From a virus: DNA of 64,000 nucleotides. Location of the stretch: the IMG/VR virus record IMGVR_UViG_3300042934_000631, positions 1-64,000 of that record. One strand, 5' to 3'. This document shows, piece by piece, positions 4,105-26,777 of this stretch (within the stretch, counting starts at the first letter, position 1; each line of letters opens with the position of its first letter). Position numbers and translations under genes: made by a program. The notes under the pieces were generated by a model. That model had not been told where the DNA came from. It worked only from the letters and a program-made list of their open reading frames with translations, and did not search any database.

Positions 4105-4719
4105 ATGGCACTGACACGCGCAGAGTTTATCGCAATCATCGCACCGGTCGCCGTCAAGTTACGCGCAGCAGGCTCGTCGATATTTCCGTCAATCCGTATC
4201 GCGCAGGCACTCCTCGAAACTGGCGGACAGATTCCCGCGTGGAATAACCTCGTCGGATTCAAAGTCGGTAGCGGCGTCACCAACGCATACTGGCGCGGTC
4301 GCAGCGTTTCGACGCAAACGTGGGAAGTCTACGATGGCGTCCGATACGACAACGTTACGGCCAATTGGCGCGCGTATAGTTCGATCGAAGATTGCTTCCG
4401 CGATCAGGACTTATTGTTCGGGACCGCACGTTATCAACGCGTTAGAGCTGCGCGAACGCCATCCGAACAGGCAGCGGCCCTCTATGCGTGCGGCTACGCG
4501 ACGGATCCGTTTTACGCAGGGAAGATCGTAGCGATCGCGTCGCAGTACGTGGATTACGATAAGGAGGTGACGGATGTGCTCGATCCAGGCGTCGCAAAAA
4601 CGGTAATCAATACGTGGATTTCGCCGGCATGGCACGCGACCAGTGACGCCAAACAGCGCGCTTACCTTAACTGGCTCGCGAACGAATTGCGCAAGGCAGC
4701 CGGCCTGCCGACAGAATAA
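4105..4719 (+). CDS. Endolysin, glucosaminidase (FlgJ/LytG type)
   Basis: 204 residues; the N-terminal 140 match the mannosyl-glycoprotein endo-beta-N-acetylglucosaminidase fold (FAM: IRIAQALLETGG, WNNLVGFKVG, YSSIEDCFRDQDLLF, YACGYATDPFYAGKI). The likely acid is Glu in LLETGG. The family cuts glycan strands of peptidoglycan. A short C-terminal tail (about residues 160-204) replaces the usual wall-binding repeats. ATG at 4105 with GGGAGGT upstream. It follows the holin and peptidase, so it is the likely endolysin. Confidence 0.85.
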   Translation: MALTRAEFIAIIAPVAVKLRAAGSSIFPSIRIAQALLETGGQIPAWNNLVGFKVGSGVTNAYWRGRSVSTQTWEVYDGVRYDNVTANWRAYSSIEDCFRDQDLLFGTARYQRVRAARTPSEQAAALYACGYATDPFYAGKIVAIASQYVDYDKEVTDVLDPGVAKTVINTWISPAWHATSDAKQRAYLNWLANELRKAAGLPTE

Positions 4720-4756
4720 CGAAACCAAAAACTAAACCTAAAGGGGAAATCAACCA

Positions 4757-4873
4757 ATGAAAACAATCGCAAAATTTATGTCCGTAGCTTCTTTTTCCGT
4801 AGCATTCGCATTCTTCGCAGTTATGAAGGGCGGCATCGGCGAGATTGACGTACCGGCCGACTTTCGCAAGTAA
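4757..4873 (+). CDS. AgrD-like signal peptide precursor, copy 1 (lysis operon)
   Basis: 38 residues with AgrD architecture: Lys-rich start, amphipathic hydrophobic helix (residues 2-22), core KGGIGEI (24-30) and an acidic/Pro tail DVPADFRK like the VPxEL tail of AgrD. AgrD is processed by AgrB and exported as a signal. There is no Cys or Ser where the thiolactone ring residue normally lies. The first 71 bases are identical to copy 3 at 26661, while 10 of the 12 changed codons after that are silent, so the core is under purifying selection. It lies downstream of the endolysin gene and is followed by a terminator, so it is probably a late gene. Confidence 0.7.
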   Translation: MKTIAKFMSVASFSVAFAFFAVMKGGIGEIDVPADFRK

Positions 4874-5940: not shown

Positions 5941-6090
5941 ATGGCGACAATTATCGGTACGGTTTTCGGAATTTTTATGGGACTGACGGAAGGGCTCGAG
6001 GAGGCCGGAGTTTCTTCCGGAGAGCTAGTTAAAACGGAGGTTATCGCGTGGGAAGATTTTTTCGCGAAGGACGGTGACGCGGATGAGTAA
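5941..6090 (+). CDS. Small hydrophobic-start protein preceding parM
   Basis: 49 residues with a hydrophobic N-terminus (TIIGTVFGIFMGL) and an acidic C-terminus. GGGAG lies 11 bases before the ATG. It overlaps the next gene by 8 bases, so it is the first gene of the partition/conjugation-like operon. No family recognised. Confidence 0.5.
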   Translation: MATIIGTVFGIFMGLTEGLEEAGVSSGELVKTEVIAWEDFFAKDGDADE

Positions 6091-6901
6091 CGTAATCGGA
6101 TTGGATATCGGTCGCAATGGTGTTAAGGTTTGCGCTGAATCTCGTCTATTCGGGTTTCCTTCGATCGTCGGCGAATGGAACGTACGTAAGTTGAACAATT
6201 TTGATTACGGAGATCGCGGATTCGAAATCGAAGTGGACGGCGTTAAAAATTTCATCGGAGAGTTGGCGGAAAACGAATCGGATAACTGGCGCTATATGTT
6301 AATCGATAATAAAGCGACAGAGGACGCGAAGCTTCTTGCGTTGACCGCGATTCACCTATCCGGATACCAGGACGTCACAGTAATAACGGGGCTACCGGTC
6401 GAGCAGCACGATGACGACCGCAAGAAAACGTTCCGCAATCTTCTGATGGGACCGCGTGCCGGATTGTGGGACGTTACGGTCAACGGTCAAAGACGTATTA
6501 TTAAAATACACGATATTAAAGTCGCAGTAGAGGGCGGAGCTGCGTTTTGGTCGGATCCACGCGATGGACTAATCCGGCTAATCGACGCAGGAAGTAAAAC
6601 GGTAAATTACGTTACAATGAAAGATCGTCGTTACATTTATCGCGATTCTGGAACGCTTCCTTACGGATTTAATACGAAGCGCAAAGGTAAGGAGATCAAC
6701 GTTAGCGAGTACGCGAAGCAGATTGCCGCTGATCTAGGTGCGATTAAATGGAGCGCTACGGATACGGTTTTTGTAAGCGGAGGCCGAGCGCAAGAGTTGT
6801 CGGATCATCTGCGTCAATACTTCCCGCTAGCCGTACCGTTACCTAACGCTGTCTACGCCAATGCAATCGGCTATTATCGCGCGGGGAGGGCTACGACATG
6901 A
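6083..6901 (+). CDS. parM: Actin-like plasmid segregation ATPase (ParM/Alp family)
   Basis: The 272-residue protein shows actin-fold nucleotide motifs: phosphate-1 GLDIGRNGVKV near the N-terminus, phosphate-2 LIDAGSKTVNYVTM at about 175-190, and an adenosine motif VFVSGGRAQELSDHL at about 230. ParM-type filaments push plasmid copies apart. It is shorter than R1 ParM (about 320) but close to Gram-positive Alp proteins. The next gene overlaps by four bases and looks like the matching ParR adaptor, as expected for a type II partition operon. Confidence 0.85.
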   Translation: MSNVIGLDIGRNGVKVCAESRLFGFPSIVGEWNVRKLNNFDYGDRGFEIEVDGVKNFIGELAENESDNWRYMLIDNKATEDAKLLALTAIHLSGYQDVTVITGLPVEQHDDDRKKTFRNLLMGPRAGLWDVTVNGQRRIIKIHDIKVAVEGGAAFWSDPRDGLIRLIDAGSKTVNYVTMKDRRYIYRDSGTLPYGFNTKRKGKEINVSEYAKQIAADLGAIKWSATDTVFVSGGRAQELSDHLRQYFPLAVPLPNAVYANAIGYYRAGRATT

Positions 6902-11961: not shown

Positions 11962-12342
11962 TAGATATTGTTCGAGCGCCTCATTAAATATCCGCGCCTT
12001 TTCTCCGCGTTCGCCAACCGTTTCCTTTTCGATCTGCTCAACGAGGTCCTTACGGATCCAGACCGTCTGGCGCGTATGGTTATCCTCGAATTTAGGGCGC
12101 CGCTCTTTCGGAGGCTCTACGTCCGCCGGCGGCTTTTCGTCGACGTTTACGTGTACGTTTACATCATCGTTTACGTTTACGTATACGGGCTCCGCCGCCG
12201 GTTCTGGCGCGGGCTTGGCGTTTTCCTTGCGATCGTCTTCGATAATAGTCGAGTCGATAAGTTGCGCATGTACGCTGCTCGCGCCACTCTGTTTTATCTT
12301 CTGCTTAATCGCATCCATTGCGTTCGGCTTCGGTTTAGACAC
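11944..12342 (-). CDS. Ribbon-helix-helix partner of ParA (ParB/CopG-type centromere binder)
   Basis: 132 residues. The C-terminal 45 residues (HTRQTVWIRKDLVEQIEKE, ARIFNEALEQYL) match a ribbon-helix-helix DNA-binding fold. The N-terminal half is a flexible, Pro/Ala/Glu-rich linker. The GTG start overlaps the parA stop by eight bases, as in type Ib partition operons where a small RHH protein binds repeats and activates ParA. Residues about 53-67 (VYVNVNDDVNVHVNV) and the C-terminal RKRKR are encoded by the same hexamer repeats it probably binds. Confidence 0.75.
   Translation of the reverse strand: MSKPKPNAMDAIKQKIKQSGASSVHAQLIDSTIIEDDRKENAKPAPEPAAEPVYVNVNDDVNVHVNVDEKPPADVEPPKERRPKFEDNHTRQTVWIRKDLVEQIEKETVGERGEKARIFNEALEQYLRKRKR
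12146..12187. repeat. Hexamer repeat cluster B inside the RHH gene
   Basis: Seven consecutive hexamers: TTTACG, TGTACG, TTTACA, TCATCG, TTTACG, TTTACG, TATACG. They are read on the minus strand as alternating Val-Asn/Val-Tyr/Val-His dipeptides, so a probable protein-binding site doubles as coding sequence. Confidence 0.8.
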
Positions 12343-13102
12343 GCGCGATCAACTCCTCTACAAATTCGCGATACTGGGCGACCGCCTGCTTAAGCTCCGG
12401 ATTATCGTTAAACCCGTTAATGGAAAGGCGGCCCGTCGCAGCTGTACGTGTGATGACGGTTTTAAAGCACAACTCCGCGTATTCTTCCTCAACGAGTTCG
12501 ATCAGCGCTTTATTATCCGTCCGGCGGACGTCGATCATGCAGCGGAGGATTCCCGCAACTTGCATCTCACGGTTAACGATTTCTTGAATATGAACGCACG
12601 TCTCAAGAAACCGGCTGAGCGCGGAATAGCAGAATTTGCTCGCTTCGAACATCGCCACAACGATATCGGCGGCGGCCAGCGCATTCAGCGTTTGTTCGCC
12701 GAGGGCCGGCGGCGTATCGATGATAACGTAATCATAATCGTCCAGGACCGGCGCGAGCGTTTCCATTAGGACGAGCGATTTGTTTCCGCGGTATGCGTTG
12801 GATGGCGAATACAGCCACGAAGCGAATCGCGCGATATGATCCTCGGCCGGCAAGATATGTAAACGATCGTTAATTGCGTGTATGTACGGCCGCGCGTCCT
12901 GAACCTGCAGCGCTTCAAAAACGGTGTTCTTATGGAAATCGTAGATGTCGCGTTGTGTTAATAACTCCGTGAGATTTCCTTGCGAATCCATATCGACCGC
13001 AAGTACGCGGTGGTTTTCGCTAAGCAAATGCGCTACGATTCCGGAGGTTGTCGTTTTAGAGCTGCCGCCTTTTTGAATACCGAATGTTATGATCTTCGCC
13101 AT
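12335..13102 (-). CDS. parA: ParA-family partition ATPase
   Basis: 255 residues with the deviant Walker A KGGSSKTTT near residue 11, Walker A' VLAVDMDSQGNLT, and Walker B DYVIIDTPPALGEQTLNAL. ParA binds DNA non-specifically and moves the partition complex. The protein lacks an N-terminal HTH, which fits type Ib systems with a small RHH partner, encoded just downstream. GGAGGT precedes the ATG by 8 bases. Hexamer cluster C lies 23 bp upstream, so the operon is probably autoregulated by the RHH protein. Confidence 0.9.
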   Translation of the reverse strand: MAKIITFGIQKGGSSKTTTSGIVAHLLSENHRVLAVDMDSQGNLTELLTQRDIYDFHKNTVFEALQVQDARPYIHAINDRLHILPAEDHIARFASWLYSPSNAYRGNKSLVLMETLAPVLDDYDYVIIDTPPALGEQTLNALAAADIVVAMFEASKFCYSALSRFLETCVHIQEIVNREMQVAGILRCMIDVRRTDNKALIELVEEEYAELCFKTVITRTAATGRLSINGFNDNPELKQAVAQYREFVEELIARV

Positions 13103-21741: not shown

Positions 21742-22404
21742 ATGTTGAACTCGTTCCTTAACGTGTTCTTCGGCACCTTAGACTCACTAGCGACTTTCGT
21801 ACTTATTTATAAAATTTTCCGTTGGCCGTTCTGGCGCGATTTCAACAAGCTGCTCATTCTCGCCGTCATCATCGCACTCGTCTCATTTGCGGACAGGACC
21901 GTGCTTGGACTAGCGGAATTCGATACCGCCATCCAATTCGTTCTGTATGTATTATTCCTGCGTTACATAATAAAAGTCGGATTCTGCGACGCTGCGCTGC
22001 TATCCGCGATTGGCTACAATAGTTTCTTACTTATTCAACTCATCGTTTATCCGGCGCTGCTTGCGTCAGGCATCGTAAGCACAAGTGACGCCGAAGTGGC
22101 GAGCGGTTTCGGAACATTCATCATCCAGGCATCGACTGAAATATCGTGCTTTATCGTTGCGGCATTGTTGTACGTGTTCCGTCTCGGATTTGCACACGTT
22201 GACTTACCGCCACATGATGCTTACGCAATCCAGAGCTGCACGAAACTCGACTGGATCGCTAACGTAATCGGTGCGATAGCGGTCATGTCGTTCACGTACT
22301 GGCTATTAAATCACGTAAGTAATATCACGTTAATGATTCCAGTACTCGCAGTCACACTGGCGTTCCTTCTATATTTATCGCGAAGAAAGGACTACGGAAG
22401 ATGA
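21742..22404 (+). CDS. AgrC-like membrane sensor without kinase domain
   Basis: 220 residues with six to seven predicted membrane segments and then only ARRKDYGR-like basic residues before the stop. AgrC receptors have this membrane sensor followed by a histidine kinase of about 200 residues; the kinase is absent here. The gene overlaps agrB by ATGA and shares its operon. By analogy with HdrM/BrsM, which hold a LytTR protein at the membrane, it could control the LytTR gene downstream directly. This is inference from layout. Confidence 0.6.
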   Translation: MLNSFLNVFFGTLDSLATFVLIYKIFRWPFWRDFNKLLILAVIIALVSFADRTVLGLAEFDTAIQFVLYVLFLRYIIKVGFCDAALLSAIGYNSFLLIQLIVYPALLASGIVSTSDAEVASGFGTFIIQASTEISCFIVAALLYVFRLGFAHVDLPPHDAYAIQSCTKLDWIANVIGAIAVMSFTYWLLNHVSNITLMIPVLAVTLAFLLYLSRRKDYGR

Positions 22405-22931
22405 CGTTAACATTATCTCGAAAGTTCGCGGATTTCACGCTTAAGCACAATCCGCATGAGACGCGCAGTTACGAATCGCTCGTCTATCAATTTGCAGTTA
22501 TGGTAAACTTCTTGTCCATAATTACGTTAACACTTTTGATCGGATTGATCAATGGGCACTTAGGCGCAACTTTAACCGCGGGCGCTGCGTTTATGTCGTT
22601 AAGGGTGGTATCCGGCGGCTTCCACTTTAAATCGTTAGACCTATGCGCAGTCGTAACGGCAGCCCTATACGGAGTCATCCCGCTAATACCGTTAGAATCC
22701 GCTTACATAACGTGGATTAACGCGATCAGCCTCGTTTTAGTCGCGGCTCTCGCACCGACTAACTTGCGGAATACGTTATGGACGAGCACGACTCGCGCAA
22801 AGATAGCGTTCAAAGCTGCGGCTATGTGCGTAGTATTAATCGGATGGGCATTCGGTTCAGAAATCGTTGCGCTGGCGTTCCTGGCGCAGGCATTACTATT
22901 GATTCCACGAAGGGAGGTGGCCATTCGATGA
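22401..22931 (+). CDS. agrB: AgrB-like peptide-processing membrane endopeptidase
   Basis: 176 residues, with four to six membrane segments. The AgrB catalytic pair is present with correct spacing: His75 in GGFHFKS and Cys82 in DLCAV, seven apart as in Staphylococcus. AgrB removes the C-terminal tail of AgrD and joins the ring. ATGA overlap with agrC-like and a further overlap with agrD show one operon. Confidence 0.85.
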   Translation: MTLTLSRKFADFTLKHNPHETRSYESLVYQFAVMVNFLSIITLTLLIGLINGHLGATLTAGAAFMSLRVVSGGFHFKSLDLCAVVTAALYGVIPLIPLESAYITWINAISLVLVAALAPTNLRNTLWTSTTRAKIAFKAAAMCVVLIGWAFGSEIVALAFLAQALLLIPRREVAIR

Positions 22932-23047
22932 AAAACGTTGCTAAGTTTATGTCCGCTGTATCATTCGGCGTCGCATTTGTATTCTACGTTACCTTAAAGG
23001 GCGGTATCGGCGAAATCAGCGCACCAAAAGACTTCTTTAAAAAGTGA
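22928..23047 (+). CDS. agrD: AgrD-like signal peptide precursor, copy 2 (agr operon)
   Basis: 39 residues; the start overlaps the agrB stop behind GGGAGGTGG. It has a hydrophobic amphipathic helix (residues 3-23), core KGGIGEI and tail SAPKDFFKK. The core is identical to the two other copies although the rest differs by many residues. No Cys is present in the peptide; a Thr lies two residues before the core Lys. AgrB is the presumed processing enzyme. Confidence 0.75.
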   Translation: MKNVAKFMSAVSFGVAFVFYVTLKGGIGEISAPKDFFKK

Positions 23048-23057
23048 GATCAACGCT

Positions 23058-23447
23058 ATGATGAGTAAATTATCCTGCAGTGTTATTATAGACGGCAAGG
23101 TTGTTAAGGCGCACGAGATGGTTCCGTTAGCCAACGTTATTATAATAGATACGATCGAGCTATCAAGGAATGATCGTAGAATTCGGATAAGAGCGACTGA
23201 CGGGGATTACGTCTTTAATTTGAATGGGGCACTGAACGTGATCGAAGATATGCTGACTGAGCACGGCTTCTGGCGCGCGGACAACAGTAATTTAATCAAC
23301 ATGGCTCACGTAGATAAGGTTGTCGACGCAATGTTCAAACCGGAGGTATTGTTCGTTAATACGGATATTCGCGGTCAAATCGCAGCCATTAAGGTGCGGG
23401 CCTTGAAGAAGCTGTTTCCGGAAATTTCGATAGTAAAGAACGCTTAG
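23058..23447 (+). CDS. LytTR-family DNA-binding regulator
   Basis: 129 residues. The C-terminal 95 residues match LytTR domains, with FWRADNSNLINMAHVDKV in the place of the typical FFRIHKSYIVNLNHI block. There is no receiver domain as in AgrA. LytTR proteins bind pairs of direct repeats upstream of genes. Encoded 10 bases after agrD, it is the likely output of the signalling operon. Confidence 0.8.
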   Translation: MMSKLSCSVIIDGKVVKAHEMVPLANVIIIDTIELSRNDRRIRIRATDGDYVFNLNGALNVIEDMLTEHGFWRADNSNLINMAHVDKVVDAMFKPEVLFVNTDIRGQIAAIKVRALKKLFPEISIVKNA

Positions 23448-23476
23448 CACAAAATATTGGAAATGTCAAGAGTAGT

Positions 23477-23526
23477 GTTTACCCCCAAACACTTGGGTAT
23501 CCAAACGGGTGGAAAACATGGTAAAC
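23477..23526. promoter_or_regulatory. Inverted repeat, possible operator after the LytTR gene
   Basis: GTTTACC and GGTAAAC are complementary arms 36 bases apart. Between them are two further near-copies of ACCCxxxAA/TTGGGT. It lies between convergent genes and has no T-run, so it is not a simple terminator. Confidence 0.4.
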
Positions 23527-23634
23527 TTTAGTAGAAGGTAAAGTAAACGAGCAGCCGGACAAACGTCGATTCCACGATTGTGGAACGATCGCTATGAGGA
23601 ACGGTGTTTAAACCGATACACTCATACGCTGCCC

Positions 23635-23868
23635 TTACTCAGTTTCGACGATTTCCCAGTCGTACAGATCTTCCGCAGTTACGCCGAGAACGTGAGCGAT
23701 CAGAATCGCGTTCTTGAGCGGAATACTCGGACGAACCTCCGTGCAATACGACGAAACTGTAGACGGACTTAATCGCGTGCGGTTGACGATATCCATCTGG
23801 ATTAAGCCGCGCGCATTAAGTAAGTCCGGTATTCGGCAGCGTCCCATAACGATACTCACTCGTTTCAA
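23635..23868 (-). CDS. XRE-family helix-turn-helix regulator
   Basis: 77 residues with HTH (IPDLLNARGLIQMDIVNRTRLSPSTVSSYC) and the family end AHVLGVTAEDLYDWEIV. A TTG at 23868 is preferred because GGAGG lies 9 bases before it; the ATG five codons earlier has no ribosome site. Divergent from the sigma-like gene, so it may control that promoter region. Confidence 0.7.
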   Translation of the reverse strand: MKRVSIVMGRCRIPDLLNARGLIQMDIVNRTRLSPSTVSSYCTEVRPSIPLKNAILIAHVLGVTAEDLYDWEIVETE

Positions 23869-23944
23869 GGACGTAGCCTCCATTTTACAAAATGTTACAA
23901 CGTAATCATATCAGAATGGGCGCACGGAAAAAAGTTCCTAAAAA

Positions 23945-25816: not shown

Positions 25817-26620
25817 ATGAGTTTATTCACGAAGCGCGGAAATGACGCGGTCAACTCTGCGGCAACCAACGACGGAGGCGGCAAGGACAGTCCGATCGTA
25901 TCGTTCAAATCCGGCAGCACGTTTAAAGTTGGCGTTAAGTCGATCGCAGACGTCGCGGAGTATTACGGCTACTCGATTTACAAGAAAGTGAACACTTTTG
26001 TCCCGAAGAATCCCGCCGAAAGAAACGCGAAAGGTTACATTACCGCTAATCCGACCGTATGGGATCGCGCAGCTGAGCTGTTGTATGCGGAAGCTAACGC
26101 AGCCAAAGAGGCCGGCGCCAGTGAAGCGGACGTCAAGCTAATCACGGACGAAGCGTATCTCTATCGCGGCAAGCCACGTTTCCTTCGCGCATTCTTCGAC
26201 CTGACGACCGGTAAGGATATCGTAGTCGACTTATCGCCGAAGCAGGAGAAAACACTGAAAGACGTTATCGCGGAAAACGCGGACGATCTCGATTCAATCG
26301 CGTTCAAGTTGACGAAGAAGGGCGAAGGCACTGGCGCAGTCGTAGCGCTCGCAGCCATCGTTAAAATGGATCGCGACTTGACTCCGGAAGAGCGCGCTAA
26401 CTTTGCGAAGATCGGCGATGTTCCATTCGATATGGAATCGCTTGAGACGTGTCTTTACGTCGCGGACGAAGCGGAGCAAATCAAGAACCTCGTAATCGCC
26501 GGCTTCGATATCGGACGCCTGGGACTAACGTATGGCGGAGACAACAACGCGAAACAGCCAGCGGAAGAGGACGTTAAGCCGATCGATCCGGATGCGCCGC
26601 CAGTAACGGTAAATTTCTAA
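25817..26620 (+). CDS. Putative single-stranded DNA-binding protein
   Basis: 267 residues. Lys/aromatic-rich middle (SIYKKVNTFVPKNPAERNAKGYI, YLYRGKPRFLRAFFDLTTG) and an acidic end finishing PPVTVNF, the pattern of phage ssDNA-binding proteins whose acidic tail recruits partners. It sits between replication genes. The family assignment is tentative. AAAGGAACG precedes the ATG. Confidence 0.45.
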   Translation: MSLFTKRGNDAVNSAATNDGGGKDSPIVSFKSGSTFKVGVKSIADVAEYYGYSIYKKVNTFVPKNPAERNAKGYITANPTVWDRAAELLYAEANAAKEAGASEADVKLITDEAYLYRGKPRFLRAFFDLTTGKDIVVDLSPKQEKTLKDVIAENADDLDSIAFKLTKKGEGTGAVVALAAIVKMDRDLTPEERANFAKIGDVPFDMESLETCLYVADEAEQIKNLVIAGFDIGRLGLTYGGDNNAKQPAEEDVKPIDPDAPPVTVNF

Positions 26621-26660
26621 TCTAAACAAAAACTAAACCAAAAAAGGGGATAACCAATCC

Positions 26661-26777
26661 ATGAAAACAATCGCAAAATTTATGTCCGTAGCTTCTTTTT
26701 CCGTAGCATTCGCATTCTTCGCAGTTATGAAAGGCGGAATTGGCGAAATCGAAGCGCCAGCAGATTTCCGCAAATAA
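26661..26777 (+). CDS. AgrD-like signal peptide precursor, copy 3 (replication region)
   Basis: 38 residues, differing from copy 1 in only two (Asp to Glu and Val to Ala in the tail). The first 71 bases are identical to copy 1 and the leaders are similar too (AAACTAAACC, AAAAGGGGA); the remaining 46 bases differ mostly at silent sites. It is downstream of the putative ssDNA-binding gene, away from agrB. Core KGGIGEI is kept and Cys is absent. Confidence 0.7.
   Translation: MKTIAKFMSVASFSVAFAFFAVMKGGIGEIEAPADFRK

Follow-up and report, generated by a model that had tools for sequence, protein, structure and literature searches.

The stretch analysed here (hereafter the window, 64,000 nucleotides) is part of the 68,411-base virus record IMGVR_UViG_3300042934_000631. 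Between positions 21742 and 23447 it carries four genes that overlap or lie close together, in the order membrane protein, agrB, agrD-like gene and LytTR gene, and two further agrD-like genes are located elsewhere in the window (Table 1). As judged from its gene content, this region is a kinase-less agr-type cassette of a phage of Paenibacillus-like bacteria. The window also carries genes of ParM-like (6074-6901) and ParA-like (12335-13102, minus strand) partition proteins, which makes it probable that the virus is a phage-plasmid, in agreement with the label "Circ" of a related 69-kb contig from Paenibacillus planticolens.

Table 1. Features of the agr-type cassette and of the additional precursor genes (positions in the window).
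Feature	Coordinates	Strand	Evidence and remarks
7-TM membrane protein, 220 aa	21742..22404	+	phrog_15604, E 2e-46; proposed receptor; AgrC-type sensor domain without kinase; Asp61 codon 21922-21924
AgrB peptidase	22401..22931	+	PF04647, E 8e-16; His75 codon 22623-22625, Cys82 codon 22644-22646
AgrD-like signal precursor linked to agrB	22928..23047	+	position and tail register; Lys24 codon 22997-22999; predicted AgrB cut Ile27/Gly28
Predicted ring-forming segment Lys-Gly-Gly-Ile	22997..23008	+	inferred from tail-anchored alignment
LytTR DNA-binding protein, 129 aa, without receiver domain	23058..23447	+	PF04397, E 9e-7; proposed output regulator
Second AgrD-like gene, without adjoining agrB	4757..4873	+	directly 3' of an endolysin-type gene
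Third AgrD-like gene, without adjoining agrB	26661..26777	+	replication region

The agrD-like gene linked to agrB overlaps the agrB stop by 4 nt and encodes a peptide of 39 aa (MKNVAKFMSAVSFGVAFVFYVTLKGGIGEISAPKDFFKK), while the 4757 and 26661 copies encode 38 aa each and display 63 and 66% identity to it. The initial annotation had claimed that none of the three cores contains a Cys or Ser able to close a ring, and the translations bear this out: Cys is absent from all three precursors and Ser from all three cores, the sole Ser past the leader of the linked copy (Ser31) lying beyond the expected cut, within the C-terminal tail. In all three copies the core reads [L/M]-K-G-G-I-G-E, with the common stretch Lys-Gly-Gly-Ile-Gly. 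The register was counted back from the tail Pro; in the staphylococcal precursor the cut, M32|D33 (PMC10196373), precedes that Pro by five residues. In this register the place of the ring Cys is taken by Leu23 in the linked copy and by Met23 in the 4757 and 26661 copies, and Lys24 is adjacent to it in all three; the initial annotation, which had named Met or Thr at this place, was right about the adjoining Lys, but Leu or Met, and no Thr, is found here. Several features of AgrD were recognized, namely a small gene adjoining agrB, a leader, a hydrophobic end of the core and a P-x-[E/D]-[L/F] tail; five residues before the cut, where AgrD has Cys or Ser, Leu or Met occurs. A scan of the linked and 26661 copies against Pfam, NCBIfam and PHROG gave no match at E<=1, and both fell below the cut-off of the TIGR04223 profile (AgrD, cyclic lactone autoinducer), again with no match at E<=1. 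The relative with the same Lys that scored best with this profile, L018 from Chengkuizengella axinellae, reached 15.7 bits (cut-off 19), and the peptide of phage Abouo, although named "cyclic lactone autoinducer peptide" in RefSeq, reached 12.6 bits against the same cut-off.

The AgrB of the window scored 58.3 bits with PF04647 (cut-off 23) and possesses both His75 and Cys82, as had been noticed from the sequence at the outset. Its R68, G73, H75 and C82 correspond to R70, G75, H77 and C84 of Staphylococcus aureus AgrB, which are needed for proteolysis (PMC10196373). Among 116 AgrBs from loci with Lys-type peptides, R68 is kept in 115 and G73, H75 and C82 in all 116, and the His and Cys are also kept in all AgrBs of the other classes (34/34 and 68/68). 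In the established AgrB mechanism a thioester acyl-enzyme is formed and then attacked by the Cys of the precursor, giving a 16-membered thiolactone (PMC4979651). Sequence and fold searches of the PDB with AgrB and with the sensor returned no match.

The invariance of the Lys was assessed with a peptide profile in which the Lys column was masked, so that peptides were not picked by this residue; its seeds were all of the Lys type, and it was blind in the masked column only, not in the remainder. The regions around 163 AgrB genes were searched, and 144 of these genes had a peptide match, with Lys in 134 cases and a Ser-type peptide in 10; six of the 19 loci without a match proved to be Lys-type by eye. 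The 134 Lys peptides reduce to 99 distinct ones (49 clusters at 60% identity, 18 at 40%), and Lys is present in 99/99 as the sole invariant residue of the core, all neighbouring core positions being variable; the tail Pro is found in 99/99 as well, but the seeds had been picked for having it. Because 99 distinct peptides of the family repeat it, the core pattern devoid of Cys and Ser is beyond chance. Loci collected with the membrane-protein profile numbered 110 (30 automatic, 80 fetched), with AgrB in 97 of them; here 99 full-length AgrB genes (three more AgrB matches are fragments) were accompanied by a Lys-type peptide in 97 cases (91 by profile, six by eye), by a Ser-type one in one case and by none in one, in a sample that favours the Lys type, since Lys-type cassettes were the source of this membrane profile. 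Against such conservation of all three precursors and their homologues, it is hardly credible that the peptides have decayed or that an ordinary thiolactone is made from some other precursor: no Cys- or Ser-type AgrD was seen beside the agrB of the window, and nothing was found in favour of either variant.

Two further considerations concerning the Lys were set aside. That it anchors the leader by the positive-inside rule was rejected, the exact register being kept even in peptides with leaders full of Lys and Arg. The lack of Arg in this column, considered as proof of amine chemistry, proves little, because columns +10 and +14 likewise hold Lys and no Arg.

The same gene order was found in the Brevibacillus phages Abouo, Emery and Davies, in the Paenibacillus phages Harrison and Paisley, in several IMG/VR contigs and on the 69-kb P. 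planticolens contig, which encodes an AgrB 78% identical to that of the window and three similarly arranged precursor copies. Among 392 genomes of the order to which P. planticolens belongs, 239 contain relatives detected with the membrane-protein profile, and the peptide-profile search in its class gave matches in 13 of 299 genomes. By these comparisons the Lys-type precursor is a large family, common in Paenibacillales genomes, and not an oddity of one phage.

Precursors with and without the Lys were compared in a set extended by a second search, performed with a Ser-type membrane profile (161/246 genomes) and 80 more regions. The combined set comprises 301 loci with 273 AgrB genes, 260 of them with a peptide. 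Counted from the tail Pro, Lys at P-9 is found in 152 peptides, Ser, Cys or Thr at P-9 in 36, Ser or Cys at P-10 in 71 and Cys at P-11 in one; distinct peptides have Ser (28), Cys (2) or Thr (3) at P-9 and Ser (55) or Cys (8) at P-10. A ring nucleophile is retained in 108/108 non-Lys peptides, which suggests that Lys has taken its place in the others, and Ser, Cys or Thr at P-10 occurs in just 3 of the 111 distinct Lys peptides. Around the cut the classes have similar tails (HSPEAP with Lys, HSPEPP with Ser), which anchors the register and places the cut before residue 28. Control loci identified in the phylum by PF04647 (the best 30 of 164 matching genomes, read by eye) have Cys or Ser at P-10 in 25 cases; among these best 30 no Lys-type peptide was found, and in five no peptide was seen. 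On a quick tree the Lys class requires at least three changes, one of them forced by supported branches; with so few origins the Lys type does not count as a switch that recurred independently.

The peptides with Ser, Cys or Thr at P-9 form an AgrD class of their own in Paenibacillales (L224, L225, L241, L261, L286, L303 and others), mostly of the pattern T-N-[SCT]-x-x-x-[HN]-R-P-E-T-P, its register implying either a four-residue ring or a shifted cut. The single peptide with Cys at P-11 (L321, position 1671, minus strand; TACFGAVGHRPEVP) may form a six-residue ring.

From the genes and their conservation we infer the cut site and the bond as follows. The best reading, to which we assign a probability of about 0.5, is that the signal is a macrolactam, formed when AgrB links the side chain of the Lys to the peptide's cut end. 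Cys82 of AgrB would cut between Ile27 and Gly28 of the precursor, five residues ahead of the tail Pro, with formation of a thioester, and the side-chain amine of Lys24, instead of a Cys thiol or Ser hydroxyl, would attack this thioester in the manner of sortase-type isopeptide formation; the product would be a ring of Lys-Gly-Gly-Ile that bears a short tail on its N-terminal side. Lys is favoured as the ring nucleophile because it is invariant, because it occupies the position of Ser, Cys or Thr in the related class and because the catalytic residues of AgrB are kept. In sortase-type transpeptidation a Cys thioester is resolved by an amine, and the proposed thioester/amine chemistry is alike, while sortase is unrelated to AgrB and, unlike it, does not process a signal precursor as an integral membrane peptidase; cyclisation by SrtA is covered in PMC4979651. 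The initial annotation had left three options for the signal, namely linear, cyclised through the Lys side chain or cyclised through the amino end; the comparison favours the Lys side chain and yielded nothing for the amino end, and the linear form persists as a rival (see below).

By the register used, the predicted ring would contain 16 atoms, the size of the five-residue (thio)lactone, since the three atoms added by the Lys side chain offset the three lost with one residue fewer. This match is suggestive only: ring-size equality was dropped as a decisive argument, as the same register gives 13-atom rings for the class with Ser at P-9, and ring size is not fixed in the superfamily, the ring of GBAP being larger (PMC3673130). 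The latter fact, together with the frequent Gly28 after the core (55/99), speaks for another route to a ring, such as a cut after Gly28, a head-to-tail closure or an attack by Lys that gives a ring of different size; we regard this as rather improbable, considering that His, Phe, Asn or Tyr replaces Gly28 in 44/99 peptides and that the tails match those of the Ser type, with the cut before residue 28. It is very improbable that the Lys serves just for docking of the precursor to AgrB and is not involved in making the bond. In favour of docking, the Lys-type AgrBs represent one or few lineages, but no acidic column of AgrB is both near-invariant in the Lys type and absent elsewhere, the best candidate (residue 25) being Asp or Glu in 85% of Lys-type AgrBs, yet also in 60% of the clostridial ones.

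No Pfam match was obtained for the 220-aa sensor, in which the histidine kinase part is absent; its AF2 model displays seven long helices (pLDDT 83.5). In C. axinellae (L018) the Lys-type agrBD adjoins the gene of a 458-aa HATPase_c kinase, the N-terminal sensor part of which is matched by the profile of the window's sensor family (E 1e-22). With the sensor part of this kinase belonging to the same family, the most plausible reading of the phage protein is a kinase-less AgrC sensor. The most discriminating column of the sensor alignment is residue 61: 116 of 119 Lys-type sensors have Asp there, and none of the 100 others does. The three Lys-type exceptions have Ala (L018 and L314, both long kinase-type proteins, L314 by length alone) or Asn (L064). 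In these alignments Asp61 is a residue that ties the class of the peptide to the class of the receptor, while a test for independent switches of Lys and Asp61 yielded only one independent pair on supported branches, so that independent switches do not replicate the association. In the AF2 model Asp61 lies at the start of TM3, and it would face the outside, provided that the basic loops are cytoplasmic.

This co-conservation sustains the main rival, a linear signal, in which AgrB would cut the precursor, water would release the peptide and the free Lys ammonium would form a salt bridge with Asp61 at the beginning of TM3 of the sensor. At neutral pH the amine of Lys is for the most part protonated, which counts against the lactam, and the co-conservation of Asp61 and Lys would most simply be a salt bridge to a free amine, although Asp61 fits an acceptor for a lactam NH as well. 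We nevertheless consider a linear signal unlikely. The Lys is kept with Ala (the kinase-type sensors of L018 and L314) or Asn (L064) at residue 61, which suggests that it is needed beyond the contact with Asp61, for making the signal, an argument from three cases, two of them from one small family; moreover, with the nucleophile kept in every non-Lys peptide, the loss of the ring would have to coincide with the gain of Lys. In the macrolactam reading the secreted ring would be sensed by the 7-TM AgrC-like protein near Asp61.

From the genes and the co-conserved residues we propose the receptor role and the output: the sensor would relieve or activate the LytTR protein with no phosphotransfer. 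A LytTR gene follows in 126 of 140 Lys-type loci. The cassette of the window adjoins the gene of a weakly matching Cro/CI-type regulator (23635-23883), and in Abouo, Davies and Harrison the cassette lies near integrases, which makes a role in lysogeny control a reasonable guess. The least firm part of the scheme is what the signal conveys, which is probably the density of related phage or host.

The cassette resembles the staphylococcal agr system (AgrB/AgrD/AgrC/AgrA) in its AgrB with the R, G, H and C residues for proteolysis, its AgrC-like membrane sensor, its LytTR output domain and its small precursor composed of leader, core and Pro-containing tail; it differs in having Lys instead of Cys, a kinase-less sensor, a receiver-less LytTR protein and another gene order. 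The agr genes of Abouo, Davies and Emery, described as those of Paenibacillus phages and comprising AgrB, a putative AgrD and membrane proteins without HATPase_c (PMC3901668), represent the same cassette as that of the window. The word "cysteine" is absent from the text of that report, and its accessible parts do not discuss the missing Cys, the Lys or the LytTR gene beside agrD. The agr3 locus of the Clostridium difficile phage phiCDHM1 is likewise a phage-borne agrB and agrD, but with a full-length AgrC and no response regulator gene (PMC3901668). A stand-alone LytTR regulator and a kinase-less membrane protein in one operon also constitute the LytTR regulatory systems HdrRM and BrsRM, for which, in the portion of the source available, no peptide or AgrB is described and the regulator gene comes first (PMC6193735). 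Direct repeats before the operon, a regulator gene upstream of the membrane gene and inhibition of the regulator by the membrane protein characterize LytTR systems; the order in the window is reversed, and a search of the window with a LytTR-type consensus revealed no paired repeats.

The agr family is defined by a thiolactone or lactone ring. An invariant Lys at the ring position in a large branch of it means either that AgrB forms amide rings or that agr signals can be linear. If the former is true, the products would be hydrolysis-stable, chemically tougher pheromones, and macrolactams would become obtainable by a genetically simple route. The co-conserved Asp of the receptor offers a ready test of specificity. 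The kinase-less receptor with LytTR output on a phage represents a compact signalling device. No description of a Lys-type AgrD was found in the open full-text literature, to which the search was confined, and this version of AgrD seems to be undescribed so far. In its general form the proposal is tentative, at somewhat less than even odds: AgrBs of Paenibacillales and their phages may be isopeptide-forming cyclases, producing an undescribed class of Lys-closed macrolactam pheromones that are read by kinase-less AgrC sensors with a dedicated evolved Asp.

Several minor observations were made on these loci. AgrD-like genes without adjoining agrB also occur in P. planticolens (contig G001:C10, positions 35 and 20913) and at G055:C1:3527251; in P. 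planticolens their layout relative to the linked copy resembles that of the window (+3.9 kb and -17 kb). Four of the five orphan copies have Met in front of the Lys and G001:C10:35 has Leu, while the linked copies vary at this place (L, L, A). Both orphan agrD genes of the window share an upstream leader (AAAAACTAAACC...GGGG; 4700-4760 and 26610-26665), and the copied unit therefore takes in the start region. Emery and Davies encode a second sensor-like membrane protein just upstream of the cassette (L011, 1107-1772; L012, 1104-1763), and in one IMG/VR contig (L002, 11249-11899) a 216-aa protein 3' of the cassette looks like two LytTR-type halves. The RefSeq label "peptidase" on the small protein in the LytTR position (NC_022980, NC_028746, NC_029029) is apparently wrong. 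Finally, a 19-nt palindrome-like repeat (GTGTTTA..ACACT) occurs twice in the window, at 23475-23493 and 23604-23622, just 3' of the LytTR gene and by the divergent regulator gene, and its two copies are possible operators.
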